Of a stretch of DNA of 64,000 nt, positions 9,620-46,000 are shown piece after piece. Origin of the DNA: Nymphaea colorata (lineage: Eukaryota; Streptophyta; Magnoliopsida; Nymphaeales; Nymphaeaceae). Numbering within the stretch: position 1 is the first letter of the stretch; each line of letters opens with the position of its first letter. The notes under the pieces were generated by a model. The model saw only the letters and a program-made list of their open reading frames with translations. It searched no databases and had not been told where the DNA came from. The position numbers and the translations under genes are program-made. The stretch lies in contig NC_045140.1 in assembly GCF_008831285.2 (NCBI RefSeq), positions 7,622,505-7,686,504 on the forward strand, written 5' to 3'.

Positions 9620-11292
9620 CATCAGTCTGCAAGTATTTAGATTCTCATACATATAACTACATGATGAAAACACAGTGAAAGTAACAATTTAATTTGTCGT
9701 GTTTTCTTTTATTAATCCTTTTCCATTTTTCTCGCTGTATTCAAGCTCGGTCTTGCGGACGGCCGACGCGGGGTCTCTAATTTGCTACGAGGAGGTGTCC
9801 AAGGACAAGGATGTAAACCGTTTGGGTGCAGATCAGATCCCACTGTTGCCGAATTCAATTTAATCGGATGCTATGTAATTGGATTTGGATGTGAATCTTA
9901 TTTTGTAAAACTAATTTCAGTTCCAACTGGCATATGATCCAAGATTTATTTGTAATCGGATCCTTGTTGGGGCCTAATTCAAAATTAATCAGACTTGGTT
10001 ATGAAACTGCGTACCAATTTTTGAGTGTGATTAACAATCAGATCCAGATTTGTTTATCAAAATCCGCTAAAATGTATTTCAAAGAATATAGATAATAATC
10101 GTATATATCCGATCCGTTACTTTTCTGTCCCTACCAAGCGAAAAGCGGATTCCATCACCTGCAGAATGAGGTCGTAGATGGTTGGTGATGATTTAGCGGC
10201 GGGACCCAAGAATTGACAACCGAGAAAATTCCTACCCTTGGTTTTGGAAATCCAACGGTCGAATTAAGGCCTTATCCACATTAACCGTCCAAAATGGAGC
10301 TCCAACCTCCTTTATTCATGGTGGGCCTCGCCCCGCTTCGTTCAGGGCCATCCATTTACACCAACAAAAATTAAAATAGAATTAAAAAAGACAATTAAGC
10401 CCTCAGACACATAACGTCCTTATCTTGTTCCGCAAGACGATGGAGAGAGTACGGCTCATGACCCCAGTTTCTTAGGAGGTGTTAGTCTCTTATAATTAAA
10501 AAGTATTTCATCGAATGGAAACCCCAACCCGAGTTTTGGTTTTTCAAGCCTCCAATGCTTGGCATTTTAACAACCACATTTTCTAAGAGGTCGTGTAGTC
10601 GTGCGTACATGCTCAATTCAATTGGAGCATTTCTTAATTTTCTAGATCACTCCTCCGTTGTTAGTTAATCATGACCAGAAAGTAAAGCCAACCTCGACCC
10701 CGGACAAGCTGCAGAGCACCTTGTTAGCTGGTTGACCGAAGAATTTTAAATCTCTAAATAATAGTTGCAAATACTATAATAGAGCCATTGTGTTGCTTAT
10801 ATTTTGAATTCAGTGGCTTTAATAAATCACCCATAATCGTTTTGAGTTTGCCCATATATGAAAATGTGTATTCTTAGAGTATTATAAGCACAACAACAAG
10901 TAACGTTATCACTAGTATTATAAGCACAAACATGACTGCTTGTGATGAATAGGATTGTCAGTACCATCGAAGGTGCTGGCCGAGAGATCAAGTCCAAACA
11001 TGACTGTAGTGAATGACACAGCCGCTCATTGTGCCAATCCACATATGGAACATAGTGGACAAATGGCCATTTCATGGTCAGGATCCAAAATTTAGAGAAT
11101 CCTCTTTTCATAATAATTCTATCTTCCCTGTATCGGGAGAGGTGGAGTTTTAAGACCCTTTCCAGCATCTTCTTTCTCTCTTCCTTTAATAATGGTTTCC
11201 GCAAATGTTGGCTTGATGTCGATTTTCATTTCCATTGACGTTGTAACCCTTAAATAAAGTTGTTACTTTTTTTCCAGCCTGCTCCACCCCGA

Positions 11293-11512
11293 TCAATGAA
11301 AAGAAATTATATGAAAAAAATAAATTTTTTTAATTACATTATGTATTTTTTAGATTTGAATTCAATTGGTCTAATTTAGAGTTTGAATTGGATCATAAAA
11401 AAATCAATAAAAAAAATTATATGAAAAAAATAAATTTTTTTAATTACTTTATGTATTTTTTAGATTTGAATTCAATGGGTCTAATTCAGAGTTTGAATTG
11501 GATCATAAAAAA
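11293..11512. repeat. Tandem duplication, 110-bp unit, two copies
   Basis: Two head-to-tail copies with a period of exactly 110 bp (for example ATGTATTTTTTAGATTTGAA starts at 11341 and again at 11451). The copies differ at only a few positions, so the duplication is fairly recent. It lies about 1.1 kb upstream of the INT1-like start codon. Confidence 0.9.
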
Positions 11513-12654
11513 AAAAAATTTTGTGACTCTCCTTATGTCCCTCCTCAATTGATGTGTCCAACAGTCAAAAGTAGAATAAAGTTAAAATTCAACGAATATA
11601 TATATATTAATTTTATTATTTTTTGGGGGCTAAAATTAATTAGTCAACAGACACCCTTTAAACCCGATTTGATTGGTGGCCCTTGCAGCCAGCGCCACGA
11701 ATCGAAAATATGGCAGTTGGTGGGTCACTGAGCATGGTCACGGGCATTTATGGAAATTAACTGAGTCTACTTGACAGTCTCCGGGAACCATTCTCCACAT
11801 CTGCCAAATCACTCCCAATTGCTGGTGCAGTTCCTTCGTGCAGTTTGGCTCTTCTTCCTTTTATTTGGAGCCTGTAAATTCCCCCCATCTCCTTGTGTAC
11901 TTCATCCAAGCCCTTCTCTTGTCATCATCAGTTGTTGCAATGTTGATACTCGGAAAAAGAGTCTTGTTCCGTTCATGATCACGTTTGTTGAGGCTTTCTC
12001 CTTCTTTGTCGGTTGTTTTTCTTCCTCGTGACACGCGATTTTAAGTCTCTTGTTTTTTTATCAATCGACGGCCCTTTTTTGGTGGTCTAGCTGTTCTCTG
12101 GGAAGTCCCGACCTGTCCCCTTTCCCCCTTTGTTTGTTGTCTTCCCGTTTGGGGTTGCTGTCTCTTTCCTGGCTCTTGATTAATTAAAGGCCATTTCTGT
12201 GCAAACTTGTGATCTTTTTTTCATTTTAATCAGTTGGGAGTTTCTTTCGATGCAAATCACCCTTTTGAATGTTTTAATGAATCGAAGCAAGGACTTGGGG
12301 AAGCGAAGCTCCTACCAATTGGGTACCTTATTGGTGGAAAGACCAATTTAGTTTCCTCTTTTTTAATTTTTTTTTCCTGGAAATGAACTCCTATTTTCGA
12401 GTGGAGGGGCCTTCGTTGAGTTCATCACATTCCTATTGTTTACCTATCTAAACAATTTCGCAGTTTTCTTGTCTCTCTCTGAGCCAATCATTTTCTCCAA
12501 GAGTTCAAATATTTCTTTAGAATCTTCGATGGGTAGCAACGTGGTGATAGTTTTCTGAGATTTTTGAGCTTAGCTGTGAAAATCTCCATTAACAGTGGAT
12601 TTGTGAACAAGCAAAGCAAAGAGTTTCAGAAGGCAGGATCAGGGAAAACACAAA
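11513..12654 (+). other. Presumed promoter and leader region of the INT1-like gene
   Basis: No coding exon is visible between the tandem repeat and the ATG at 12655. The last 800 bases are pyrimidine-rich, as plant leaders often are, but I cannot place a TATA box or transcription start with confidence, and a leader intron cannot be excluded. Confidence 0.35.
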
Positions 12655-15600
12655 ATGACAATTGCATCTCTTCCTGGTAGTTCAGGCTTGCTGGATCCTC
12701 CTCCTCCTCCTCGGGAGGGTGTGTCAGTTTTTAGTAATCGTTATGTCCTTGGCTTGACACTTACTGCTGGTATAGGTGGTCTGTTGTTTGGGTATGATAC
12801 AGGTATGTATCCAAAACGATGATTTAGTTTTCTGGTTTTCCTGTCTTATACAATTTATGCATTTTTAATTTAAGACATAGTAAAGTTATGAAATCTTTAG
12901 TATTACGAGGAACATATCTTCTCCATTTTGAATTTTGAGCTTATAAGCTTATAGGTTAACAGTAAAAGGTACTGTCTACCACATCAAAAGCAAAAAGTCA
13001 TTCTTCTCGTTTGATGTGATAGGCTGTAGGTGTAAGCCATTCAATTAAAATGACTGGGGAGATTTGGGGATTGAAAATGGTTCTCACTTCTCATGGTTTT
13101 TAGTTTGCACGAAAAGATTTGTGAAAAAAAAAAATCAGACATTTAAATCAAATTTGAGTGGAGAAACCGAAAAAGGTATGACCCTAATTTAAGATGCCTA
13201 CAGATTCTGAAGTGTAAATCGGATTTTTATGATTTTTTTTTAATATCTAAATTTTAGAGATTCCTTATTCGATCGATTATGGGCGGATTTGTGAAAAGCA
13301 ACCAGGAAATGATTGAAATGGTTGGATTATCATCTGGATAGCGGATCGGTTAGTGGCAGGACACACGCATTCAAATAGAATAATTTCTTAGGCCAAAGTT
13401 AATGTATACGTTAGTCTTATTTGCTGAAAGTTTTAGGTCGAGCTAATTTTGATGATTTTCTCCCTGTTCAGGAGCAATAAGGCATTGGTTAGACTACAGT
13501 AAACTAATGTGTCGTTTCAGATTGAATAAAAATTGTTCATAAGAATATTCTTTTTGTTGAAAGGACTTAACAAGAATGCATTATAAGGACAGTTTGTCTA
13601 TAGATTCATGATACTAATGTGCTCATTTTACATAAATCTGCTTTACATGACCAAAGAAAAACATAAATTTTGTGTTTTCTGCAAAGAAAACTCTGCAGTT
13701 TGCTGTTGATTTCGCATATGCTTCCAGGAAGTTACATGTTTCTTTCCTTTTTTCCTTGACATGGGATAAAGGGTTGGCTGCTAAATTCAATTTCCATTCG
13801 TGGCATTTGGTACGTGGAGAGATCAACTTGGCAGGCTAATTGGGCTTCATCTCTTGATTTTTAGTGGCTTGTCATGCTCCAATGAGTGTCTTGGTCTAAA
13901 ATGCCAATACATAATTATTTCCTGAGTTCAACAGTTTCGTGCAGTTTGGAAAAGTTAGTTACTTTTATATCTTAGCTTGATGCTTTGCAGTTCGCACAAG
14001 TGCTAAAAGGTGGCATAAGTCTCACCTCAGAAAATCGAAAGTCGTGGTAGTTTGGGTTTCAGCTGTCTGAATTGCTAACCCGAAAAATTGCTGTTGTTAC
14101 ATCTAATATATTTGTAGCATGTCTTTCTCTTAAGTGAATGAGTCCTGGGTTAGTAGTCTCTTCTTCTATTTTCTAAGTCTCTATGCGTAATTGGTGTCTA
14201 TCTTTTTGCTGAATGTACCTTCTTTTTATTGATTACATGTGCATGAAAATGACGTTTTAGATTCTGAATTGCAACAGCAGTTTATCATCTATTTGATCAT
14301 CCAACAAAGTGATTGAAAAATTTTCAACTGAATGGCGAACATATGTTGAGCATGTATTACATGCCTTGCTCTTTCTCTTTTTCTTTTTCTTTTCAAAGCT
14401 TATGTTTTCTGTCATCAATTTTTTTTTTGTTTTACTTAATGTCAAATATTTAATACTGTTCAAACTATCTTGAAGGTGTCATCTCCGGGGCACTCCTTTA
14501 CATCCGTGATGAGTTTGAATTGGTGAATGATAGCACCCTTTTACAGGTTGAACTTATTTTTCTTCTTTTCTTTCACATGAATGTTGTATTGAACCAGTTT
14601 CTCTTTCCTGACCTCTTTGTCTCTAAACTGTTCAGGAAACGATTGTAAGCATGGCCTTGGTTGGTGCGTTCATAGGTTCAGCCATGGGGGATGGATAAAT
14701 GATGCTTATGGCCGTAAAAAGGCAACTCTTCTTGCTGATATGGTCTTTATAGTAGGTGCAATATTCATGGCAGCTGCACCAAATCCATACGTTCTTATTT
14801 TTGGAAGGTTGCTCGTTGGCTTGGGTGTTGGCATTGCTTCTGTTACTGCTCCAGTATATATAGCAGAAGCTTCTCCTTCTGAAATAAGAGGAGGCCTTGT
14901 CAGTATGAATGTGCTGATGATTACTGGTGGACAGTTTGTTTCTTATGTTGTGAACTTTGCTTTCACTGAGGTTAGATTAACATATGATTTGCTTCCTTAT
15001 CTTTTGTTATATGCAACAAACGTGCTTGTCCTTGTGTGCTAGCTTTTCTCTCTCATTTTTTTGACCCTTTCTTATTAACAATAAGGGTTTCCTGTAAATC
15101 CATAAAAAAAAAGAACTCTTAGCTTGATTATAATGCATGATGATTGCTTGGAAGTATATCTTTTTTTTTTTTAGCCTGTTGACCTGGGTACTCCATTTAA
15201 TTTGCAGTTCCCTGAATAGGTCGGTTAGTAGTTCGCGTGGCAAATGCAAACCCAGTAGGGAAATTAGATGTACTTATTGGGCAATATTTTTTGCATAGGC
15301 TACATTCTGGACGTGTTGACATTGAAGATTTGTCAACTTGATATCATCTTTTTGAAGATCTTGTTCTGAAAAAAAATTATTGAACACTGAAAATTTTCAT
15401 ATTATTTCAGCAATAAGAAGCAGCCCTCTGGCCAATCAATATAAAATACTTTATATTTGCTTTTAGGATTCATGTTAACCAATCAATACAATTTTGCACA
15501 TCTAGTTCAAAGTAGAAGTTTATTCATGGTATCTTATGTATACCTGGGTAGAAGTAGTATTTTGCTTTATGTCAGCTTTATTGTTTTCCTCTTTCTAATT

Positions 15601-16997
15601 AACAAACCATTAAAAACTCATATAGGAACTTGAGTCCATGAGTTAACTTTACAAAATTTGAGCATCTCACTGTTTTCGGCATTTTCTCAATGCCTATTAC
15701 TATTAGTTGAAGCCTCCAACTGTGCCCAGTGGAGCTCTCTATCTCCTTAAGCTGTCCATGGCAATTGACACAAACATAGGTAAGCTTGTCTTGACACTCA
15801 GTGTAAAGCTGGAAAGCAAGGGCAGCTTGAAGGAACTGTAAGAGGATCTTGCCTAGTGGAAATCACTTTTGGGTGAAAGTTTCATGAAAATTGTAGAATT
15901 TAAATTGAATAATTTACAAAATGTTTGTTAACTTTTGAAGGAATAACAGAAACATACTCATGATTGAATATTTTATTTAGCTACTTGTACTGAGGTACAC
16001 ATAACACTAACTAAGCAGTTAACTGAAAATTTTTCAAATTTGAGCATCCACTCCGTTATTTTTTTGGAAGCTAATATCCTTTTTTTTTTTAATACTCAGT
16101 TTCAATATGACATGATGTTCTATATATATAATATAGTTTATATTAACTCAAATCGTTTCAAATTTCTCAGGTCACTGGAACATGGCGTTGGATGCTTGGG
16201 GTATCTGCTGTTCCAGCTGTCTTACAACTTTTTCTGATGCTCTTCTTGCCTGAGTCCCCACGATGGCTTTTCCTGAAGGTAAATCTCAAGCCAGTTTAGA
16301 TACATGGGTATTGATCTCTACACCCTTATCTGAGCGACTTGTAGTGGTTATGGGCTTCTGGTTTTTTGGCGATTGCATTGGATCAGTGGAAATTCCATAC
16401 TTTTATGTAAGTTATACTGGTTCATTCCATGGTTTCAGCTCTAAGAGAGCCTGATCATGGTCCTCAATTCATGTATGTTTGAAAGAAAACTCCAGAGGTT
16501 CATTTAGAAGAATATCTGTGCTTAACTGAGGAAGAGCAAGTTATGGATCTTAGACTCTGGTTGGTCTTGTTTGACTATTAGAGTGTAAACAGAGTTAAGG
16601 ATGGTGATGGAATGATAACAAGATTGGAGATAGAAAACTGATATGGGACAGGCTTCATTGGCATCTGTTCTAGGAAGGGCTTTCTCCATCATCATTTCCA
16701 CTTCCTACTTAACCCCCCTATCCATTCCTCCAAATAGTTAGAGCAATAGAGTGGACGAATGGTATTAAATACTTATTTGTACCTTCTCAAACCCTAATCT
16801 CCCTCAAACCTGTGTCATATAGAAAGCATTGATAATAACTGTTTCAGAGGAAGAGCTATTCTGAAGGAGCCAGACTCACCTCTTTAAAAACATAAATTTG
16901 CTTAACAAGAAAAAAGTAACAACTATGAAGCTGTATAAGCACCTGTTGCCTTTTCTTTTCATCATTCTTCAATTCATTATTGCATTCATGTGGCTTT

Positions 16998-17194
16998 CAA
17001 GGGCAGAGCCAAGGTAGGGCCTGCATGGGCCATGGCCCCAGCTCAAAAAAGTTTTTTTAAAAAATTTACATGTAAATTTTAGAAAACTTTACTTGTTTTA
17101 TATAAAAAATTTGAAAAATGATATTTTGGTCCTAGTCAAAATTTAGAAACTTTAATTCAGCCCCCCTCATGAAAAATTTCTGGCTCTGCCCCTG
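16998..17194. mobile_element. hAT-like MITE, family B, in INT1 intron 4
   Basis: A 197-bp element with inverted ends CAAGGGCAGAGCCA (left) and CAGGGGCAGAGCCA (right, read inward), flanked by an 8-bp duplication with one change: GTGGCTTT (16990-16997) and ATGGCTTT (17195-17202). Same size and ends as the copy at 8412-8609. Confidence 0.85.
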
Positions 17195-17282
17195 ATGGCT
17201 TTGTTCATGATTTAATGTATTTTTAGGGAATTTTACATTATTTTAAGCATGCATGAACACACACAGACACACATCCTCTCAC

Positions 17283-17563
17283 CTATGTCACATGGGCGCT
17301 TAGTGCGGATGGGGCAATTTTTCAAAAATATATGTGTGAATATATGTATATAAATCGTTTGTTACATAGTTCTTTAACTATTTAGTAGTCATATTTATCT
17401 ACATTTATATTAAACTTTTTGTATTAGAGATAGTTTAGTTATGTGCACATTACAATGGTCGGTTTTGATTCGATTCAGCTGACTGAATGGCACTTGCTGT
17501 GTCAGAGAAATGCCAGCGTTAAGACAGGTGCAACAGCCGTTTAGAAGTACCCATGTGACATAG
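17283..17563. mobile_element. hAT-like MITE, family A, in INT1 intron 4
   Basis: A 281-bp element with inverted ends CTATGTCACATGGGCGCT (left) and CTATGTCACATGGGTACT (right, read inward). The 8-bp flanks are CCTCTCAC (17275-17282) and CCTCACAC (17564-17571), one mismatch. The ends match those of the 442-bp copy in the VPS3-like gene at 56249-56690. It lies 88 bp after the family B element and about 240 bp before exon 5. Confidence 0.8.
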
Positions 17564-19524
17564 CCTCACACACACTCATATATAATGAAAATTTAGGAAG
17601 TTAATAATTTATGTCTGTCTTTTTGGTCTGGTGTAAGTGCACCAGCACACTACTAGTACTCACTATGGCTCCTAAATAGAGCCTTAGGTGGTACATCTGA
17701 TGCAGTTAGTGGATCTTTTCTCTACTAGTCTGGACCTTGTTCAAATTAATTGGTTGTACTACATATAGCCTCTGTTCTAGTTCTGAATTGCTCTACTTAC
17801 ACAGAATAAGAAAGAGGAAGCTGCTGTGGTACTTCGGAAGATATACAGTCCAGATCGTTTGGAAGAGGAGATGGATGAATTGTCTGCTTCAGCTGATGCT
17901 TGTCGGCAAAAGAATTCCATAGGCTACCTGGAAGTTTTCAGGACAAAGGAGGTGAGACTTGCACTCTTTGCTGGCGCGGGACTTCAGGTATGAATTCAAT
18001 TTCTTTTTCTTGATGATGTCCCAATGTCCCATAGGGGAGAAAAAAATAAGGAGATATATTGAAAGGAAAAGGTTTCTCTGGAGATGTTTTATGGTGTGAG
18101 ATGTTTTGTGGTGTTGCTGTTGCTTTCTAATCATGTAGCTTATAGAAGTTTGGCGTGAAGGATGAAGTGAGTACGTAAGAGTTTTTAGAAACCCATACAT
18201 TGTTATCTTGTGTTTTACAACATTTTTCTTTTCTGAGCTTTTTCACCCAATAACCCAAAGAATTCGAGTCCCTTAGAGCTTTCTTGCAACATTCACTTTC
18301 ACAGATACAAGGTTGGCTTCTCGGTTTTATCATGTCACCGTAAATGGAAACAAACAGGATGAAGAGGGTTTCCTCTCTTCAACAAAACCTTACAAGGGGA
18401 ATATGCAAATATCTGATAATTCTTTCTGCACAAAACCTTGGCAGTTCTATGCTCACAGTTTTTTGATATGGCCGTTTAATCAAATGTTTTAGAATGACAA
18501 GCACATTGTACTAAGTCCATGAGAAGTAATCTTTCTAGGTCCAGAATTATGGTTGTGCCTGTGCATGATGAGTATTCTTTGGTGATGCTGTTTGTTACTT
18601 GAATTCCACGCACAAAATTAGCACCAAAAATTTCTTATACCTGATCAAGTTCAAGAGAAGATAGTCCGAAAAAAGTTGCACAAAAGAGATACTTTAATGC
18701 TGTTGCATAATCATTTCTTTAGTTTCCAAATCAAGGAAAAAAACAATTAGAGAGAATGAAAGAGGTTTATCCACGTACTTAATCTCACCTTTGATTCTTC
18801 TGCAGGCTTTTCAGCAATTCACAGGAATTAATACTGTGATGTACTACAGCCCAACCATTGTGAAGATGGCTGGATTTTATTCTAATAGATTGGCATTGTT
18901 CCTCTCAATGATTGTTGCTGGAATGAATGCAGCAGGAACAGTTCTTGGAATATATCTGATTGACCGTGCTGGAAGGAGAAAGTTGGCTCTAGTTAGTTTA
19001 GCTGGTGTATTTATATCACTTTGTCTGCTCTCGGGTGCATTCTTCTTTCAGTCAGATGGGCTATCCGCTAATCCTACCATGACAAGTAGTGGTGGCTGGT
19101 TTGCAATCATTGGTTTAGTTCTCTATATTGCTTTCTTTGCGCCTGGAATGGGTCCAGTTCCTTGGGCAGTAAACTCCGAGATCTATCCAGAAAAATATAG
19201 AGGTACCTGTGGTGGAATATCAGCAACTGTCAACTGGATCTCAAACTTGATTGTATCAGAAACCTTTTTGTCAGTTGTTGAAGCGATCGGGGCATCTGGA
19301 ACATTTCTGCTGCTTGCAGGAATTGCAGTGCTCGCACTCATTTTTGTTGCCATCTTCGTGCCAGAGACTAAAGGTCTAAGTTTTGAGCAGGTGGAGAGGC
19401 TATGGAAAGCAAGGGCAACTGATAGCTCTAGCCATCTGCAATGCCTTCTGGAAGCAGGCCAGGAAGCGTAAATGGTAAATACTGGAGGTATCTCTCTCTC
19501 TCTCTCTTCATGCACAAACGAATG

Positions 19525-19662
19525 CATGTGCAGGGACACCAGTTGACCGATTGAATTGGAAACACTTTTCAAGTTTTAAGCCAAAAAACAATGTTGAAAC
19601 TTGGAAAAGAAAACTTGAAAAGTGTGACCAATTCAATCAGTCAACTGGTGTCCCTGCACATG
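19525..19662. repeat. Foldback (hairpin) repeat just 3' of INT1
   Basis: Arms 19525-19577 and 19610-19662 are inverted copies of 53 bp matching at 50 positions, with a 32-bp loop. The hairpin starts 54 bp after the stop codon, so it is probably transcribed in the 3' UTR. A third, degraded direct copy of the left-arm interior follows at about 19675-19702. No clear flanking duplication was seen. Could be a foldback/MITE remnant. Confidence 0.85.
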
Positions 19663-19810
19663 ACTAGTTCACTGATTGAATTGGTCACATTTATCAAGTT
19701 TTCTTTTGCAACAATGGTTTTTGGCTTCAATTGGTCAGATCAGTATAAAATACCAACATCTCCTATGCATTTATATATGTTTGCATATAGATATATACAC
19801 CATAGGGGCA

Positions 19811-25051: not shown

Positions 25052-27262
25052 TCAGAACCTGCCATCGTCAACCACATGAATTGAGCTTGATCCTGGAGTG
25101 CGTTGGCCTCCCCTGAGCTCCTTCATCCTCTTCCTTACATTTACAGCTCTCTCCCATTTCCCAGCTTCGGCATAGATGTTAGCCAGTAGCAATTGACAAT
25201 CAGTATTCCCTGGATCAAGCTCCAGTATCTGCTGAACTATGCGCTCTCCGACCTCAACATTTCTATGGCTCCTGCATGCAAATAAAAGTGCTCCCCATGT
25301 TGAGATTGCAGGCTTCATTGGCATATTGAGAATCAGCTCCTCTGCCTCAATCAAATTGCCAGCTTGACCAAGAAGGACTACCATGCATCCATAGTGAGCA
25401 AGACTTGGCTTAATTCGATGGACTGTCCTCATGCAATTGAAAAAGTGCCATGCAGCATCCAACCAGCCTGCATGGCGACATGCAGTAAGCAAAGCAAGGA
25501 ACGTGAAACTATCTGGTGCGACCTGTAACTGCTGCATCTCTGTAAACACGTTCAATGCCTCCTTCTCACATCCATTGAGGGCCAGTCCACGGATCAAAGC
25601 ATTCCACGCAGAACTGCTTTTTGTTTTCATCCCATGGAAGATGCCAAATGCAGTGTCCATGCTTCCACAACGAGCATACATGTCCACAACCGCAGCACCA
25701 AGACTGCACTTCAGCTCAATCCCTTTCTTGTGCATGTACGCATGAAGTGATTCGCCCTGACGTAATGCTGCAAAGTCTGCACACCCCACCATCAAGCTTA
25801 ACAAAGTGGCATCATCTGGCTCAGCCTCTGTCATTTGCATCTCGGCGAAGAGTTCAAAAGCCTCTTTAAGTCTCCTGCTCTGCGAGTACCCAAAAACCAT
25901 AGCATTCCAAGAAACCAGGTCCCTTTCAGTCATTCTGTTAAATAATCTTCGGGCATGGTCCACCGATCCGCACCTACAGAAACCCACTACCAAAGAACAA
26001 CATCCCACAACTGTTTCATTCTCCTTAAACAGTCTCAATGCCTTATCCATCAGCCCGCACCCAGAGTAAAAATGAACCAAACTGTTATGCAGTTTATCGT
26101 CTTCCAAACCACACTTGATAACATAAGCATGGATTTTCTCGCCTTCAAGAACTTCCATCAATCTAGTGCATGATGACAACACACTGGCAATGGTAATCTC
26201 GTTTGGTCGGATACTAGTGGTTCTCATCTCTCTGTATACCATCAGCGCTTCCTGGTAAAACCCAGCTTGCAGACAAGCTGAAATCAAGGCAGACCATGAG
26301 ATCACGTCTTTGTCAGGCATTTCGTTTAGAAGCCTTTCTGCCTTTTCCAGGAAGCCTAATCTTACATATCCAGCGATCAACGCGTTCCAAGAAACAGCAT
26401 GTCGATGGAGTAGACCATCAAATATTATGCAAGCAACGTGTATGCTTCCACAATTGGCATACATATGAACAATTCCGTTTAGGACAAAGGCATCAAAAGC
26501 AAGATGTTCAAACTTAATAACATGACAATGAATCTGCCTACCAGATTCAAGAGAGCACATACTTGCACAGGCAGACAAGGCAATGGCCACAATGTATGCA
26601 TCTGGCTGTCCAATCTTGAGAAGGTCGGAAAAAAGCGCCAAAACTTCTACATGGCATCCCAATTGCTTGTAACCATTTAATACTGTGCTCCACGAGATCA
26701 AATTCCTCGTGGGCATTTCTTCAAAAAGTTGACGCGAACGCTCGACAAAGCCTTCGGCAAAACACCCATGAATAAGGGTGTTGTAGCTCACGACGTCGGG
26801 CTGAGGTATTTCCACAAACACTTTGAGTGCAACTTCCGCTCCTTCGCAATTGACGTACAACTGGAGCAAATTGTTCATCACGAAAACATCGGACACAAAG
26901 CCAAGCTTCAAAACCTGTCCGTGCATTACTCGTCCAGGTTTGAGTTGCTTGGTAGTAGCACATGCGCTCAGGATAAACGAGAAGGTGAAGGAATCGGGCA
27001 CACCCGATTGACGGATCATCCGACGATAGAAGAGAAGGGCATCCTTCAGGTGAAGAGATTGCGTGCAGCCACGGATCATGGAATTCCAAGTGAAGGTAGA
27101 ATTAACATCATTATCTGCAGCTGCAGCAGTGGAAGCATGAGAAGAGCAGAAGAGGGTGGAACTGCAAGTGCAAGGGTAGATGACACGGCGAAGGATCACA
27201 TAGTTGGCTCGGTTGGGGTGGTTGGCGAAGGTGAGGCCGCATGTTTGTGTGAACCGTCTCAT
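25052..27262 (-). CDS. PLS-class pentatricopeptide repeat protein, E type
   Basis: A single intronless frame of 736 residues, ATG at 27262 and TGA at 25054-25052. The first 55 or so residues are rich in Arg, Ser and Thr with few acids (MRRFTQTCG…), fitting a mitochondrial or plastid targeting peptide. From about residue 57 there are back-to-back PPR repeats of 31-36 residues with typical signatures: TWNSMIRGC, VVSYNTLIHGCF, LISWSTVLNGY, AVSWNALIAGY, VISWSALISACL, LVSWNAMVFGYSQ, SSAWNALIRGLALNG. The C-terminus (about 640-736) is an E motif (STWGALLFACRSHRNVEVGERI, LELDPGNTDCQLLLANIYAEAGKW) and ends at IHVVDDGRF. No DYW deaminase domain follows. PLS proteins bind single-stranded organellar RNA and mostly specify C-to-U editing sites; E-type members need a deaminase partner in trans. 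The RNA target cannot be read from here. Confidence 0.93.
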   Translation of the reverse strand: MRRFTQTCGLTFANHPNRANYVILRRVIYPCTCSSTLFCSSHASTAAAADNDVNSTFTWNSMIRGCTQSLHLKDALLFYRRMIRQSGVPDSFTFSFILSACATTKQLKPGRVMHGQVLKLGFVSDVFVMNNLLQLYVNCEGAEVALKVFVEIPQPDVVSYNTLIHGCFAEGFVERSRQLFEEMPTRNLISWSTVLNGYKQLGCHVEVLALFSDLLKIGQPDAYIVAIALSACASMCSLESGRQIHCHVIKFEHLAFDAFVLNGIVHMYANCGSIHVACIIFDGLLHRHAVSWNALIAGYVRLGFLEKAERLLNEMPDKDVISWSALISACLQAGFYQEALMVYREMRTTSIRPNEITIASVLSSCTRLMEVLEGEKIHAYVIKCGLEDDKLHNSLVHFYSGCGLMDKALRLFKENETVVGCCSLVVGFCRCGSVDHARRLFNRMTERDLVSWNAMVFGYSQSRRLKEAFELFAEMQMTEAEPDDATLLSLMVGCADFAALRQGESLHAYMHKKGIELKCSLGAAVVDMYARCGSMDTAFGIFHGMKTKSSSAWNALIRGLALNGCEKEALNVFTEMQQLQVAPDSFTFLALLTACRHAGWLDAAWHFFNCMRTVHRIKPSLAHYGCMVVLLGQAGNLIEAEELILNMPMKPAISTWGALLFACRSHRNVEVGERIVQQILELDPGNTDCQLLLANIYAEAGKWERAVNVRKRMKELRGGQRTPGSSSIHVVDDGRF

Positions 27263-28370
27263 GCCTCTGCACCTCCATGCAGTGTGGCAAACTCTTCGCC
27301 ATATCGATGCATTGTGAAAAGTGACGCGAGTACCTCAACATATTGGTTCATGAGATTTCATGATTCAATCGTTAACTACAAATCGAAAATTAAACTAAGA
27401 AAAACAGAGACAAACTGCAATCAGTACATAACAAAAACACCAAGTAATTTGTAACAATCATGCGATCAAAGAAAATTGAAGTGGTTATCTGTGTGAGGCA
27501 TACGATCTAAGAAAATGAAGGTTTTAAAAATAGATTTCCAACTTTTGAAGGGGTAACAAAAACATGCTCCAAGTTAGTTTTACTACATTAGGTTAAATGA
27601 AAGAATTTTAAATTTAAGCATGTCGTTGTTATACCATCAAAAGTTGAACGCGCTTTTGTAAAACTTCCAAACATGTTAAAATCAAATTAAATAATGAAAG
27701 TATCAGTTAAATTCTTATAGGCATACAATCACAGAAGAATACAATGAAAGTAACATGACTTTTACAAACATATGCTGACTTAAGGGCGTAACCATATGTC
27801 ATTGCTGCAATTCTATCAAAATTTCACGGGAACTGAACAAAATCATATTATTTAGGGTACGAGCGTAATATGATAATCAAATTGTAGATAGCATCTAAGG
27901 AATGTCAATGGATTGAATTTATATCAGATATCCAACGAACTGCTTCAAAGAATTTGTATATAGGAAAAAAAATTGAAATCTGATTAACAAATCCAAGTAA
28001 CTTGGGATTTAAGATCAACATCCAATTGCATTCAGAACTTTTTTTTTTTTTCACTGCAAACGGGCAGGGGAATGACCTCATCCTTTTATTCGAAGGAAGA
28101 AAAAATACAAAAACTAACAACCGAATAAACAAGAACATGAAAAAAAAACAATAGCTCAGAGGAGCCCAGAAACATATGAAGAAAACTAATTACAGTAAAA
28201 AATTCTTTGATCTGCGAATAGTGAGACGATCTCAGCTGACAAAAAGCCATATGAAATTCTCAGGTCTGCTATTCTCCTCAGTGAAAGAAATTTAGCCATT
28301 GAAATATTAGATCAATTGCTCATCTTGCGGCCATATCTTCCACCTTTTATTGTTGGAAACAAGTGAAATG
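27263..28370. other. Intergenic / PPR promoter side, no gene seen
   Basis: AT-rich, stops in all frames, one poly-T run near 28041. The first few hundred bases should hold the PPR promoter and leader, but no defined element can be placed. Confidence 0.5.
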
Positions 28371-33574: not shown

Positions 33575-36376
33575 TCATATCCTCAATGGTTGGTGACCGG
33601 GCCTTGTTTGTTCCAGGTTGGTATGTTTCAATTTTGCTTTCTTGGTTGCAATTTCTTGGAATGGGTTGCCCATGCCAGCTAGATGTTGGGACTTCTTTAT
33701 CTTCTTTCTTTTACCCTGATCATACTCCTCATCCCTGAAAGTTCGCAAAATGATAAAATATGTAATTGGATTTTCGTTCAAACATCAACCATTACTGGCT
33801 ACAACTTTACAATCTCTTACCATTCATCAAGCACATAACCAATGCTTGTTAGCAGTTTACCCTGGAACTGCTTGGCCCGATCACATCCTGATGCTTGTCC
33901 ATCATCCCAGCGAGCAACTGCAAAGTAGGAATAAATCAGCTCTGTCCATACATATATATATGCAATGCATGATCTCAGAAATTTCACTTTTTGTCCACAT
34001 GCATTTTTCACAAATCTAACCCCATGGGAGGATCCTCTGCGTGAAAAAACCTAGCGATTATAAAAGAACCCTACTCCTGAATGCAGAAGAGGAAAAGAAA
34101 ATAAAAACTGGATTCGATAATAAAGAAAAAAAGGTTGCCGAGCATCTACACAATGGCCTAGGCATTTTGAAATGGCAGGTTGCTTAGAAAACAGCCAGCT
34201 TAAGCAACCAGGCAAGCCTAGGAGCTTACGTAAGCAGTCTGTCACAACAATTAAATGCTACTATTTGGTGAAAGATCTTGTTTGTTCAAAGCAACTCCAA
34301 CAGATCTCCCTATATTTTTCCTTATTCTCAGAACTAAAGAGCTGATTAAGGTGCCCAACATTGAGTTGTCAATAACTAATCTCTACGCACACAATCACAG
34401 TCAAAGACTTGTTTTGGAGAAAATTAGTCCCCAGGAGCCCATGAAGTTCGCTTCTGCTAATAGTTGGCTCCAAACAGTAACCCAATATTATTGGAGGGCT
34501 AGAGACTCCAATTTGCAGTTGGACATGTTTCCTTTCTCCTTCATGTCCCCAGCCTCCTGGATTACCAAAAGCAATTTTCCAAAGACAACTGCCTTTCTTA
34601 GCTCAGACATCTGATATCATTCTATCAGACACACTACCCCTCCACTTTCCGTCATTTCAAAATTACTTGTTATGAAACTAACGGCAATCTAACCACATGG
34701 TTTTTTAGAGAACTTACATAAAAAATATAGGATTTGAAGAACTCATGAATAGATCAGATATTACAAACACATTAAAATCAATGGCCTTGGCTTTGTCACC
34801 TAATAAAATCTGATCCACATTGTGTTTCTACATTTTTGTGTATGTAGAATCCATCTGTCCAATTAGATTCTAACTTCCAAGTCGTTAAAATTGGAAATCA
34901 AACACAGACTGCTCGCGGTCCTAAAAAGGCTACTCTGGACTAATCCGTCTGAGCTGGTCCAAGTTGGTTGACTAAAATAAAACAAATAGGGAGGTGAAAA
35001 AAAAATTAAAGTGATAAAAGTAGTAAAAAGACAATATATTACTATGAATCAAAATCAAATAAACCATGTAGTTCACCTGTGACAGCCATAGGAGGATATC
35101 AATTGCAACACCTCATAAATCTGATCTGTGTTGTGCTTCTACATTTCTAATACACAGAATCTATCTATCCAATTAGATTCTCCGTCGTTAAAAATTAAAC
35201 TTGGAATACAGGCTGCTCACAGTACTAAAAGGCCAGTCTAGACCACTGAACTGGTCCCAGTTGGCTGACTGAAATAACACAATAGGAAGGCAAACACAGA
35301 CTGCAGCTTATGTATATAACGCTACTTTGTGTGTGTGCGTGTCCGTGCTTCTGAAAACATGTATGTCTCTGTTGACTAAAAAAAAATAGTAAGAAGTCCA
35401 GCAATATAATGTTTAAAATGGTTAAAGAACTAAACATAAAATAATCATACTAGTCAACTAAACCACATCGTTCAGCCAATGCACAGATGACAGAACATTA
35501 TGCAATATATCCTGCTACCAATATATATGTGCACAAATGTATGAATGTGTGTGTGTATATGCATGAAGAGAGAGAGACTGACACAAGCTTAATAAAATTG
35601 AAAATTTTCAGTAAACCATAGGGAGAGAAATTTAAAAAAAAGGAAAGAAAAAGAAAAACTAACCTGCAATTGGTGACAATCCTCTTGAAAGCAAGTCCAT
35701 GAACTTATTCTGAACTGCTCCCTTGTGCTGACCATTTGCCTCTCTTACACAAGCTAGATCCCCAGACTCATTTGTTTCTGCAGTTTTCTGCATATTTCTC
35801 TCTCTATTCATTCTTTTTCTTATACTTGTACTGCCATTATCACATTGACTTTGATCTCCCAGGTTGGCATAGCCATTTTCCTTGTATGCTACTCCAACCT
35901 GGCAAGACATACCCTGTGCATGAACAGGATCTCTGTGGACTTGTTCAGGAACACCAGTTTGACTTCTCAATTTAGTGCCTAAAATATCCTTTGCAATACT
36001 TTGCCTGATCTGGCTCCTGGCCTTGTGTTTATAATCTTTTTGTACTTTTAACGCTGCCAAAAACATTCTTCCACGAGAAGTAGGCATCATAGGAAGATAT
36101 TTTCTCTTCCTGATCTGCTTGGAAGTGGTCCTTTTCTGGTCAAGAACAGCACAAATTGTGTTCTGGTTGGTAAGAGCCTCCTCAGAACAACCATTCGTCA
36201 CAGTGGCCTGTGCGTCAATTGAAAGTTGTGCCTCACTATTCTGTGTTGATATTCTTGGCAGATCAACAGTCTTTTCTTCTCCAACAGAGCCACCAGGCTG
36301 TAAGTATAAAACATATTCATATCATTTTCCACTAACAATGAACACATTCCCGTGAGCATTTAACATAGCCAGAAGA

Positions 36377-36445
<69 letters not shown>

Positions 36446-37038
36446 CGAGAAAGAGAGAGAGAGTGTGTAAATAAGATGGATTTTGATTTTAAACATTTTC
36501 CACTTTTTGAGGGGTAAATGCATCTTTCCAGATTTAACTTACAGAGTTTATATGGTGGATATCAGTTTTTGGAAGACAATCTCAAAAAGCAAGTTTCTTC
36601 TTGTTATTCAAAAAACACAATGGTAAAGTGCATTAAATTCATAGGCTCATAGAACAGTTTTTGGGTTGTGAATTGTGAGTACTTTATAAGTTTATAGGTC
36701 TCTGGTTACAGTTTACACCACACATCTTCAATGGGGGTCAAAGAAACTCGAATTGTGAAACAGAAAAACATGTTTATTGCATGCACACATGCACATGTGC
36801 ACACACAAGTAAATTTGTCGACAAATAGCCAATATATAATCAACATCATTTTACAAAAAGTTCATAGCCAAAAGAAAGAAAAGAGAGAAAGTTGGCCGAT
36901 GCATTGCATTGGGCAGTTGAGAGTGGATTCCCATGTACAATGAAAATTCTCTCTCCCCCCCACCCCCACTATTTTTTCTCGGGGTGTGTATTCTCATTTC
37001 GATATTCTCTAACCAAAACCTAGCCGAAGGAATCAAAT

Positions 37039-37084
<46 letters not shown>

Positions 37085-40000
37085 CGCTAGATTATGACTT
37101 CCAAAAATACGATCATTAGGGTGCCATTTGACTTTTCCAGCAAATTAATGATGCTTTTTACAAGTCTAACCATATAGATAAAATTGGATTGGCCCAAAAC
37201 TGTAGTTTCTAGAAAATCAAAAAACTCCAATTAAAACTGATAATTAAACTTATGTACAAAATTTAATCTATATATTGGATTTTCACTTTTCAATCCTATT
37301 TTGGAGATTCCAAGTATATCCGTATGATAAGATTCAAAGAAACAATTTCAAGTCACAAGAAAGGACTGGCACCAGACATCACATTTGGAGATGCTTATTT
37401 CACTCGTTTGGAGGATCATGCTCCTAAATTCGTTAGATTTAATAGCGATATTGATGAACATGGAATAGCATGTCCATGAGCAGTTTCTTAGCAAGAAGCA
37501 GAATTTACCTGACAACCAACTGAGCCATTTGGAGCAAGCAGCTTCTTAGGAGAAGGAATGTGGGAGTCAGTGTCCCCAGTTGACAGAATTGCTGACTTAT
37601 GGACATAATCCACATGGGCTGTTCCAGTCTTTGATACATCCGGGCTATTATCATACACAGTGCAAGAATTGGTAACACATGATTCGCTGTCACCATTAGA
37701 GGGAGTAGCCAATTTCTCTTCACAAGCCTGCTTCGAGATTCTGTTGTTAGATGCATGTTTATTGATTGCATCATTAAGTGCCGCCTTCGCAGAACCTGCT
37801 GAACTAATAGTGGCATTTGAACTAACTTTTATTGATTCAGCTGACTGATGCGAACATCCAAAGGCTGTGTCCATATTTGTTTTCAAGTTTGATAACTCTG
37901 ATACAGCATGTTTGGAGTTATTCAAAGAGTTAACAGCTGGACTAGAAGAACCCATCTTATGCAGTTTGACTTCCCTCACCATAGATGCAGCAGATAGTGA
38001 AATACCATTTTTTACTCCTATATTATGATTCCAACTGTTTTCAACGGCCCTATTGACAGATCCAGGAATAACACCATTCTGAAGAATGCTTTTTTTCATA
38101 TTAGAGTTTTTCCTATCAAATACATAGAACAACATGTAGGCCTTCTGCTCCATCACAGACTTTTCGCTGACTTGACTAACCTGCAAGACATATTAAATCA
38201 ATAAAAACTTGAAAAGAATAGATATTATCATTCCAAACAATAATAAAAAGTTTCTCAAGAGATTCTCATATGAAGAGACATCATTGCAAGGCCTAGAATT
38301 TATAAGCCAAAGCATGTAAACCCATGCATCAAGCAAAAAGTTACATCTATTCTCTAATCATTGTATACAACTTCTCTGAAAGATCTCTATCAAGTTAAAT
38401 TGATAATTTTGCCTAAACATTCTTGCTTACTGTCAGCAACCGGATGTAGCATATGTGGACAAGTGCATACCCGATTATCATCAAGTGCATGCCAAACTCC
38501 ACTTGAGGTGCGAACAAAGCAGTAATAGTGACCAGAATGAGTACTCCAACCAGCATGAACCAAAACTCCATAAAGAGAGTATTTTAGGTCTCCTTCCTTC
38601 ATAAACAAATAAAAATGAAAAATGATAAGATAGAGCAAGCCTTCAAAAGTTTGACGAAGCGGAAATCTGTGAAGAGAACTTACATATGGTCCACTGACAT
38701 ATGGCTTTAGATTCAGTGTTGTCCCAAACTCAACCTTCTTGTCTATTTTGCGTCCAGGCTCACCTGAGCCAAATCTTTTTAAATGAATTGTAAGGACATA
38801 TGGAGCCTTATGAATAGTAAGTTGTTTGCGAGCTCGAACTTTCTCTTTGCAACGTGCACATTGGTATTGCTTTTGTCCCCCATCCAGCTCTTCCACGGCA
38901 GTAAAATGTGCAAGTGCCTTGGGTAGTGAATCTGCTTTCACTATTTGCAAGCTCAAGTCCAAGAAGGGATCAAAAGTATTTGAACAATGAGAACATTGTG
39001 TGCATTTCACCTGCTTATTATGCAACAATTTTTCAACAAAAGAAATTTGTTGCTAGAGGTTTCAGAGATCATAAGTTCAATTTAGTATTTTGGCTAGAAT
39101 AGCTGTACCTGACTCCTAAGTTTTCCACCAAAGATTTTGTGAACTAAGCTTTTTTCATATGCACTAGGTGTCTCACTCGATACTCCTGAAGGCAAGCAGC
39201 ATCTATGCATTGATTCCATTAAATTAACCATGTATTCATGGGCATCCTCCTGTCTTGAAGCACGAAAACTGTGTGATATGCCTGATTGAGCAGTCAAGGA
39301 CTCAAATGCATTTCTATTTATCCAACATTCTGGACTGCAATACCAAAAATTCCGTTTGCACAATCTCACAATTTGGTTTTTGAAGTTATATGAGTTGCCA
39401 CTTTACATCACATAAAAGGATAACGAAGTATAAAAAATTAGTAGATGCCAGCAAAATTGTTCCTTGATCTCTTGATGATATGAATCCCTCCATAAAACAA
39501 CATTCTGAGTGCATTTCTAAGTACATGCACTCTACAACATACTTCTTGGTGACAAAAACAGTAAGTAGAAACCGGTGTCCACACGATCTTAATATGAATA
39601 CTAAATTTTGGCAATTCACCAACTTTTGTTACTTCTGAACGTAATATGCATAACGTCATATTTTGCTTTCAGCAAATAACAAGAGTTAACACGCTTAAGC
39701 CTACATTGTGCACATGCTGTTGTGACCTTTCCACACTCAGCTACGTGTCTCTTAGGCTGCTATGTAGCAACTATGCACCATTGATCCCACAAACATGAAT
39801 ATACCTATTTATGAATTTGAAGAAAAATGAACACAATAGAATCAGATAAATGTTCTGGATGGTGATCTGTTAACGTGAATGCTGTGTCTATATCTATGCA
39901 AACCTATGCGGACTTATGCAACACATTATTAGGACCACATTTCACCTAAAGAATAATTTAAACAACAAAACTGGGGAAGAAAAAAAAAATACTTGATAAG

Positions 40001-43000
40001 ATTTTGAAGCTACAATTATCTTTCACTGTGCATGCAACTTGTGTTGACCACTAGAAGTTGATTTGTCTTAATGAACAACAAAATAATGTGAAGACCAAAA
40101 CTTCTTCCCAATGCATTGCACATTGTCTAACCCTACTAGGCAAGCATACATACTGAAACATTCACAAAATAAATGATTAAACATAATAATCAAATATTAT
40201 AATAAATTTCATAAAATGTAGAGCTTCCAGAAAGGTTCTATATGAGTTGGAAGCCACACAACATGCATATAAACACTAACACAATGCTGCTTAATATATA
40301 AGACATGCAGAGACAGCAGAATAGTGGGGAGGAACAGTTGTGGATATTTAGATGGTCTGTTTCCCCCATTCTATGAAAGCAAAGCACGAAGTTGATAAAT
40401 GAACAAGCAAAATAAAAGGATACTCCTCAAGTTTCTGACGAGATGCATGGGTGATAGAATTTTCCCAGATGACTGCAGAGCAGATCTAACATGGTTCTGA
40501 ATTGCACACATTGCACAGAATCCAGCAATATGACCTTTATTGATTGAAATTATATTAGCAAAGGAAAAAAGGATGCTCCGACAAGAAGACAACTTATTGC
40601 TTCCTAGAATGTAACAATAAACAAATAAAATCAAGACATCTGATCTAAGGAAAGGAAACAGAAATACATGTAAATAACATACACAAACTCTAAGTTTTGC
40701 GAGATAAAAATAACAAGCTACTCAAAAAGAGCAGAGAAGAACAGGGAAAAAAAGAAGAATAATCAAAACATTCGTGTAAGAAATAAGGGCTAATCAATAA
40801 CCATTTAATACTCAAAAGAACTGTCAAATAAATCAGAGTATTAGAGTGGAATACCTAGATAAAGTTGGACCTCTAATGGTATTTTAACAAGGGAATTGTC
40901 ATCGTGGCTAGAAAAAAATCCAAAACCAAGCGCTGAATAGACCATAACAATCCCTAGAATCTACGGACAGCTTTGGAAATTATGCACACATCGGGTGTTT
41001 TTATGAATATGCATACGTGCAAAGAAAGAAGGTCCAGAGCAGAATGGATCATCCCACAAACCTTTATCAAGTAATTGCCAAGACATTTATGAAAATAGAA
41101 AAACAGAGATGAACAGTTCCCTTTGTCACTAAAATTTGTTAGAAAGCACTGAAAAGTAACCAAGTTAAACAGGCATTTATGCATTTTTCTGAGGAATTAA
41201 GTTTTGGAACAAAGTACTTTCTATAATTTTAAAACTATCCCAAGCTTTCTTGATAGTTGATATCATTGTGGATTTTCTTTTCAAAAACTTCAAAATATTT
41301 CAAAAAAGCGCTGATCAAACAGATTGATTAGCTTCATGACAGTTGAATATTTGTATATACAATACGGAAGAACATGTAAGAAAAGCTAAACAAGAGCAAG
41401 TAATCAAGCATAGTGTAACACTGGCAACAAAGACACCCTCAACTAAGAAGGCTTATCCATGTTAAGTACCCTTTGCTAGAAATGGTACAAATAAACACTT
41501 TATGCTTGAAAAAGAGGAAATGAATAAATAAGAACTAAACAAAGGTCCCAAAACTGGTGGTAACTGCTATCTAGCTTTTATGTTTTTCCCTTTCAAAATA
41601 CAACTAATAAACATGAAGCCAAAAGAAGTAGCAATAACCAAGCACAATATTCCCTTCATTTGTTTATTTAAGAAATAGCATTAGATTCCACGAAAATCTA
41701 TTTTTAAGGATTTGAAGCAAATTGAAACTGTGAAGCCAACATAAGTAAACAAAATAGAAAAGGGGGCTCAAACAAAATAATCATTCCAAGAAGACATAAT
41801 TTCATCATCTTCAAACAAAAGTCTAGCAAAAGCAGGTGGAGAGTATTTAGGCATTCTATTGAAATTACAAAACACCGTAAACGTCAATGACAAACGTACC
41901 TCTTATTATAAAGGAATCAAACAACTTGACCCCAAGACACATAAAAGTCTCACCACATCAACAGAAAGAACACCATTAACAAAAAAAATATAAAGGAAAG
42001 AGATGAACAACGACACAACTGAGTGTTGGACGTTACCAAATTGTATTTAAAATTGAAAACTTTTTTTTATTCGGCAGTTGTATCTCCTACGATTTTGGTC
42101 TGTTACAGATTGTGATATAGTTTCCTTTTCTTTTGGAAGAGATAATGCTGAAACGTTATCGTGCAGTGTATATTATATAACACTCTTTTGTAAAGAAATC
42201 AAGTAGTCGATTAACCTCCTTTCAAGCTTTTTACCGCTTAACATGGTACCAAGCCCATGGAAACTTGATCCTTGTCAACTACGGCTGAGAATCAGTCACC
42301 GCATGCACCATCAACCGGTGGAAATTACTCTCAGCGTCCATCTGATGAAGACAATCCATTCTACCTTCATCACTCGGACAATCCTGGTATGGTTCTAGTT
42401 TCTCAGCCCTTAACCTGTGACAATTATGAAGTCTGGTGCTGTGCTATGTCTATGGCTCTAGCAGCCAAGAATAAACACGGGTTCGTCGATGGCTCTATTC
42501 CTAAGCCAACTGGTCCCAAGTCTCTGGTTATCTCTTGGGAGCATTGCAATAATATGGTTCTCTCATGGTTGCTTAATATTCTCTGCACAAGACTCTATCG
42601 TCTACTGTTGATTATGCCAATAATGCAGCACTTGTTTGGCAAGAACTGAGAACTAGCTTTCCACCTTCCAATGCTCCACGGTTGTACAAAAAATAGTTAC
42701 TTGTAAACAGTTTCAGTCCTCTATTGGTGTTTATTACTCTCAAATTAAAGCCTTGTGGGATGAATATGATTCTCATGTGACGTTACCTACTTGTGACTGC
42801 GGCACCATGGCAAAAGTTGCTGTGATTCTTCATCGGCAACGTCTCATTGAATTTTTAATATGCCTAAATGACAGCTACAGTGCTATTCGTAGCCAAATAT
42901 TACTCATGGATCCAACTCCTACCACTCCACGAGCTTATTTTCTTCCCATTCAAGAGGAAAGTCAGCAACAGTTCATATTACTTTTCCCCTTGAAAATACT

Positions 43001-46000
43001 ACTGCTGTCCAACATCCAAATGTTAATAATGTCAGACGATGCAGCAAATCTCGCCTGCAATGTGAGCACTGTGAGCGTACAAGACACACTAAAGTCCGAT
43101 GCTATCACATTCATGGTTTTCCAAGCACGTTTGGCTCTAATGCCCCTAATCAGCAAACCAAGGTAAACCCCACCTCTGTTGATGCTTTGTCGCAAAGTCA
43201 TACACCATCTTCCTCTACCTTTGGTGCAATCTCTCTCAATCCATACATGTATCATCAGTTTATGGACTTCTTAACCAACCAAACCCCAAAAGTGAACATT
43301 GTAGGTATGTCTCCTCAATCCATTGCTTGCCTACCTACCTCTTCTAAGTGGATCATAGATATTGGCGCCCCCCATCATATGGCCAGTTTAATATCTCTTC
43401 TTCTTTCTCCATCATTAGCCATTTTTAATCCAGTTTGCCCAATGGATCAACCACACCTGTGACTCACACATGGCAGGTTCGACTGACCCCTACTCTTACA
43501 TTGTTGAATGTCCTTCTCATTTAACCTTATTTCTGTTCCTAAACTTGCCATAGAAAATCACTGTGATGTTATCTTTTCTAACTCATATTGTATTGTTCAA
43601 GACCGAGCCTCGAAGAGGACGATTGGGCGGGGTAGGTTGGAGAATGCCGGTATGTTTCGGAGCTTGACAAACTAGCTGCTGCTCATGTGACGCCAGACCC
43701 ATCTCATATATGGCACTGCCGCGTTGGTCACCCATGTTATTCTAGACTTAAGATTTTATTTAATTCTTTGGATTTGTCCTATGTTGATGAACATTGTTCT
43801 ATTTGTCATCTTGCTAAACAGGCTTGTGTGCCTTTTCTCAATACTTTCATCTCCACTACTTGTTTTCAATTGATTCACTGTGATATTTAGGGAAGTTATC
43901 AAACGGGATCACTTTTGGCGGTGCACTATTTTTTTTAACCATTGTCACAGAAAACGCATTTTATTAAAAAAAAATGTGTATAAAATGTGAAAAACAAGTC
44001 AGCCACATAAAACGTAAAAAAACGAATTTTAAAAAAACACCAAAAAATAAAAAAACAGGTATAATATGCATTTTTTGCGTTTTTTCGTATTTTTATTAAT
44101 TTTTATTTTTTTATAATTTTCAGGATGTATTAAATGTTTTAAATTTTTTAAAAATTCGCTGAGATTTTCCTGAGATATACAATTTTGCCGTATTATACCC
44201 GAGAAATGTCTCGCCGTATAATACCCATACATGTTTTTTGTGACAATGTTTTTAACTATAGTAGTTGATTTTTCACACTCCACCTGGGTTTATTTGATGT
44301 GGCATAAGCATGAAACCTTTTACATCATCCAAAACTTCATTTCCATGGTGAAAAATCAGTTTCAAACTTGAGTTAAAAAAATTCGTAGTGATAATGGGTC
44401 AGAATTTTTTTTTCACAATATGATAGAATTTTGACAAAGTAAAGGTATTGAAAGACAACACTGTTGCGTTGGCACTCCACAACAAAATGGAGTCATTGAA
44501 CGCAAGCACAAGGATCTTCTAAATATGGTCTGTGTGTTACGTTTTCAAGCTCAAGTCCCACTTAAATCTTGCGGTGATTGTGTTTTACTGCAGCCTATTT
44601 ATTAAATCAGCTCTCAACAAAACCATTGGAAAATAAGACCCCTTTTGAGATTCTACATAAAAAGAGGCCTAAATATGATCACATCCGAACCTTTGGATGG
44701 TTATGTTATGCTTATAACATATCCAAATTCCAAATACCATAAGTTTGATGCAAGATCGCAAAAATGTTTTTTCATTGGATACCCAATTGGCCAAAGTGCT
44801 TATAAACTATATGACTTAGAATCTCATGAAGTTTATACAAGTAGTGTTGTACATTTTGTAGAGCATGAGTTTCCTTTTTCCAGCATCCAAGAAAGCGATG
44901 GACAACTTGTCTTACCTATCCCATCGCATGAATCTCTTTAATATGAGTAGCATGGACCCATATCTGATTCTTCCCATACTCCATATCTACCACCCACCAT
45001 CATAGATCATCCCAACCCACCGTCAAGTTCCTCCACACCCACTCCACCTCCATCTAATAACATCACTACTCAGCCTGACAACCAAACTTTACGGTGCTCT
45101 ACACTACAGCGCATGGTTTCATCTCATCTCCAAGATTATCGGTGTTTCCACACCTCCTCAATCTAGCCGTCCCAATAGGTAATAGCCCTCTTGTTACATT
45201 GCTTACTCAACATCCCATGCATCATTTTCTTCACCTTGATAACTTCTCCACACGACACCAAGCCTTCTTATCAACCATTCGTAATACCCATGGGCCATTA
45301 ACTTTTGATGAAGCAATGTAGTGTCAACAGTGGATAGATGCCATGGATGTTGAGTTTCGACTTTTGGGCATTAGAAGCTAACTCTACTTGAGAAATTGTT
45401 CTTCTTCCACCATGCAAAAAAATTCATTGGATGTCGTTGGGTCTACAAAATCAAGTATCATGTTGATAGTTCCATTGAACGCTATAAGACACATCTTAAT
45501 CGAAAGGTTATACACAAACCGAAGGCATAGACTACACAGAGACATTTTCTCCCGTCACCAAAATCACTACTCTTTGATGCCTTCTTTCCATAGTAGCCAC
45601 TAATGGCTGGTCTTTATGTCAAGTTGATGTTAATAATGCTTTTCTTCATGGGAAATTGCATGAAGAGGTCAACATGACACTACCATTGGGTTTTACCTGA
45701 GGAGAACACAGTTTGTCTGTTACAAAAATCTCTTTACGGCTTGAAGTAGTCCTCCTATAATTTCAAACTTACCGATTTCCTTGATCAACTTGGATTCCAT
45801 CAATCAAAGGCAGATTACATTATTCTCTAAAAAAGATCAACATGGCAGCATACTTGTTGTATATGTCGATGACATCGTCAATTTGAGGAGATAAAAAACA
45901 TGCATTCAACAATCGAAGGTGGTCATCAATGTGAAATTTCAACTCAAGGACTTGGGTGAACTAAAATGTTTCCTAGGCATTGAAATAGCAAGATCAAAGC

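Follow-up and report, generated by a model that had tools for sequence, protein, structure and literature searches.

Structure of the INT1-like gene

The window, that is, the whole stretch of 64,000 nucleotides analyzed (G000:C3:7622505-7686504), carries on its forward strand an INT1-like inositol transporter gene with six coding exons. Exon limits were drawn from exon joins and reading frames, and the gene was identified by Sugar_tr and TIGR00879 matches of the two pieces into which a one-base break divides its protein.

12655..19471, + strand, INT1-like inositol transporter gene, six coding exons
12655..12802, + strand, exon 1, start codon at 12655
14476..14546, + strand, exon 2
14636..14970, + strand, exon 3, 335 nt, containing the break
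14686..14690, + strand, run of five G; the missing base lies here or at a neighboring position (letters, paralogue proteins, DNA alignment, insertion trials)
14696..14698, + strand, premature TAA after 93 codons (translation from the ATG at 12655)
16171..16278, + strand, exon 4, 108 nt
17805..17987, + strand, exon 5, 183 nt
18806..19471, + strand, exon 6, terminal stop at 19469-19471, LLE in the C-terminal tail

All five introns (1673, 89, 1200, 1526, and 818 nt) are GT-AG. Exactly one lesion was found in the 1511-nt coding sequence, and every splice site is intact. Starting at 14534 in exon 2, the downstream frame runs open through 434 residues until the stop at 19469-19471. Rebuilding the gene in this way bore out what an earlier note had read from the letters: the positions of the G run and the premature stop, an exon 3 put out of phase by one base, and an otherwise intact gene. 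The first Met past the break in the downstream frame is residue 17 of 411, and a protein starting there would be predicted to lack the first two helices.

Several other features were seen in the window. A tandem duplication of 110 bp (two copies, 95% match) occupies 11292-11513, ~1.1 kb upstream of the INT1 start codon, and a foldback element with the look of a MITE-type insertion lies at 19525-19730, ~50 bp past the INT1 stop; its arms (19525-19577 and 19610-19662) are 53 nt long and 94% complementary, with further overlapping arms. On the minus strand, an unbroken PPR frame of 760 codons with PPR repeats and an E motif extends over 25052-27334, and pieces of a ubiquitin hydrolase gene are spread over 35659-47769, with PF00443 in 38390-39052 and 39094-39402. 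Between the apparent first exons and the rest of the latter gene, plus-strand stretches in 42269-46514 read, by eye, like a Ty1-copia element. Scans of the window for tRNA genes and Rfam families found nothing.

One base is missing at the Gly-Gly codons

Both pieces of the INT1-like protein fall in register on the same protein profiles. On Pfam Sugar_tr the upstream piece covers positions 2-65 (E 2.5e-07), its residue 90 falling on position 65, and positions 67-452 are covered by the downstream piece (E 1.2e-117); on TIGR00879 they cover 51-118 and 120-510, respectively. The downstream piece alone scores 363.6 bits on TIGR00879 (cut-off 237.8), and together the pieces span the profile, as members of the sugar porter MFS family (PF00083/TIGR00879) do. 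These registers show that the split of the protein into two pieces is not due to chance. The single profile position left between them is the first glycine, the codon of which shares a base with the next codon.

Paralogues in the same genome agree with this register. Four of them (L001-L004) read G[KR]T[SA]D in the register where the window protein has GWIND, and the two INT-like loci described below, L038 and L039, both have Gly-Gly at the break site, which L038 crosses in one uninterrupted frame. A BLASTN alignment of the exon-3 region with L038 (67% identity) has a one-base gap at the break site; its two other single-base gaps are close together, of opposite sign, and cancel each other. Profile registers, paralogue proteins, and the DNA alignment thus agree in indicating that one base is missing at the Gly-Gly codons.

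Which base was lost is less tightly constrained. According to the earlier note, the conserved Met-Gly-Gly-Trp needs six G, which is too specific, since four different one-base-longer DNA strings read Met-Gly-Gly-Trp and the missing base need not be G. These came from 24 one-base insertions tried in an 11-base stretch, which together encoded 12 distinct peptides, including one interrupted by a stop. The deletion may have produced the G run rather than having been caused by it, and if the lost base was not G, the break is not a homopolymer error. Eight runs of five or more occur in the coding sequence, and no tandem repeat overlapping the break site was found.

Family and subtype of the encoded protein

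The downstream piece is 48-69% identical to L038 and L039, which are provisionally termed INT by a loop, versus 23-50% for the other 55 matches in the genome. A long Cys-rich loop is present in L038 and absent from the window protein. Absence of this loop defines INT1. We take the loop of L038 to be INT2/4-type and, in part from general background, presume that the window gene is INT1 and not another INT. The window protein and L038 share a QETIVSMA...GG..ND..GRKK segment and are 48-63% identical in four pieces; L038 differs in having the Cys-rich loop and in reading through the break site.

Likened by description and not by sequence, the window protein resembles plant INT1, a tonoplast H+/myo-inositol symporter (Arabidopsis At2g43330, sugar beet BvINT1;1): it is a sugar-porter MFS protein of ~503 residues without the long Cys-rich loop and with a C-terminal di-leucine followed by Glu. 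It differs in its frame, broken in the assembly, and in the acidic spacing before LL. The earlier note had counted LLE as a tonoplast motif; the letters are there, but seven residues separate LL from the nearest upstream acidic residue, too far for the published acidic-dileucine consensus [DE]X3-5L[LI] (PMC11963481), and the claim was overstated. The same source describes two INT1 proteins at the tonoplast in sugar beet (PMC11963481). The literature searched yielded no publication joining Nymphaea colorata with an inositol transporter, and a search for bacterial relatives of the gene gave 130 pattern matches, none of them a relative.

Copy number in the genome

The genome searched comprises 407,766,735 bases in 783 contigs. 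Second copies were sought with two queries, the downstream protein piece, for which 101 of 102 candidates were scored, and a DNA stretch of 501 bp covering exon 3, for which two of two were scored; a Sugar_tr search of the genome was not used for copy number (9 of 189 candidates scored, the window gene not among them). Among the scored candidates, the protein query gave 68 matches: four were the window gene's own exons (82-100% identity), four lay in the INT-like gene L038 on C12 (48-63%), five lay in the INT-like locus L039 on C2 (54-69%), and the remaining 55 lay elsewhere. The DNA query matched only itself and the C12 gene. With these two queries, no second INT1 and no alternate-haplotype copy was found in the assembly. 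The check for a second INT1 locus that had been proposed earlier thus turned up only two more distant INT-like loci, and a real break would leave the genome without INT1.

The matched pieces of L038 are in open frames. L039 (G000:C2:24915500-24921500, minus strand) looks decayed, with a stop and two or more changes of frame within its exons. It may be the relic of an older duplication, and part of its damage could itself be assembly error.

Selection on the gene

Over the 452 codons common to the window gene and L038, pN is 0.34 and pS 0.76, which shows that the window gene has been under purifying selection for most of its history. Synonymous sites are saturated against the relatives compared (pS 0.73-0.81), so a recent relaxation of constraint cannot be told from these values. 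The window protein keeps 51 of 67 residues that are invariant in five transporter paralogues (L001-L005) and differs at 16, a count that says little because those paralogues belong to other subfamilies. A pseudogene is expected to carry several lesions or to show relaxed constraint; L039 has several lesions, the window gene just one.

Rescue by splicing or recoding

Rescue of the break at the RNA level is unlikely. We translated splice choices using the three exon 3 AGs before the break and four of the five exon 2 GTs, as well as transcripts that skip exon 3, skip both exons 2 and 3, or retain intron 2. Three left an open frame: a cryptic acceptor AG ending at 14649 (498 residues), a cryptic donor GT at 14506 (489 residues), and skipping of exon 3 (391 residues). 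None restores the normal protein, and all lack the normal second helix. The acceptor at 14649, which by eye has no clear pyrimidine tract, would replace the start of that helix with an unrelated segment, and the other two choices lose more. The seven other combinations (two acceptors, three donors, the joint skipping of exons 2 and 3, and a retained intron 2) stop early. That a real break is passed in an open transcript through any of these routes is highly improbable. A wrong exon boundary as the cause of the break was rejected, since no translated exonic choice restores the normal protein.

Alternatively, a real break might be bypassed, with production of normal protein, if ribosomes slipped by -1 on GGG or if RNA polymerase slipped within the G run. 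A ribosome that moved back by one base could re-pair the glycine codon in its P site, and its product would read Met-Gly-Gly-Trp; the 60 nt from the stop fold more stably than most shuffled versions (z of -2.19, with 5 of 200 shuffles as good). Programmed -1 frameshifting uses a slippery heptamer of the form X XXY YYZ, however, and GGGGGAT is not one. Three other folded stretches gave z values of -0.98 (83 nt), 0.08, and 0.45, and a single stretch at -2.2 among four is weak evidence. L038, moreover, reads through this region in one frame. Slippage of either kind is scarcely to be expected here.

Origin of the break

A residual single-base assembly indel is probably the best explanation of the break. 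The earlier note had left the choice between a null or fresh pseudogene and an assembly error; the one-base break and the intact remainder behind both held, error is favored, and a null remains a serious rival. Error is favored because there is a single lesion, no second copy, long-term constraint, and a likely indel-prone type of assembly. The gene would then be an ordinary INT1-type gene in which the reference carries one deleted base left over from long-read assembly and polishing. In the plant itself, intact Gly-Gly codons would give a protein of ~503 residues, predicted to export inositol from the vacuole by a proton-coupled mechanism.

The N. colorata assembly is described as a Canu assembly of PacBio RSII reads, polished with Arrow and with Illumina reads and Pilon; it comprises 409 Mb in 804 scaffolds, with 14 pseudochromosomes (PMC7015852). 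For older long reads, error rates of 5-15% are given, with indels especially frequent (PMC9985148). The break has the marks of a residual long-read indel, in that one base is missing from a gene that is otherwise intact, constrained, and apparently single-copy, and of the eight coding-sequence runs of five or more it sits at the only one made of G or C. We infer a data error as the probable source of the missing base. Against it weigh the polishing with Illumina reads, which removes many errors of this kind where the sequence is unique, the chance that a base other than G was lost, and the unbroken 760-codon PPR frame in the same window.

A genuine and recent loss-of-function allele (fixed, or heterozygous with the assembler choosing the broken copy) is possible, if less probable than an assembly indel. 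The sequence as given says as much. Nonsense-mediated decay is predicted from the distance of a stop to the exon junctions. It would be expected here because the stop is followed by the next junction after 272 nt and by the last one after 563 nt; the mRNA would be a decay target, yielding no more than a stub with the first two helices, and without a substitute carrier inositol would stay trapped in the vacuole. Arabidopsis INT1 knockout lines are reported to be growable, so such a loss is tolerable (PMC6250803), what we presume to be the assembly used was described as including Illumina polishing (PMC7015852), and L039 points to decay of an INT gene in this lineage. Against a null, the absence of any other lesion means that the loss would have to be very recent, and the saturation of synonymous sites places so recent a relaxation beyond the reach of the test. 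A null would also be costly because the searched assembly holds no second INT1 to take over.

What is at stake can be judged from Arabidopsis, in which INT1 is described as the only known protein bringing inositol from the vacuole to the cytoplasm, and in which knockouts have shorter roots and hypocotyls through reduced elongation, more strongly with sucrose (PMC6250803). We consider it unlikely that the plant has truly and recently lost its only INT1 and lives without the known vacuolar inositol exporter, trapping inositol or using another tonoplast carrier. If the break is an assembly error, as we favor, the only INT1 found in the genome may end up truncated or split in automatic annotation, and a gene loss that never happened could enter comparative studies. 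A real break would make the plant a natural INT1 null for testing vacuolar inositol storage and sucrose-dependent elongation.
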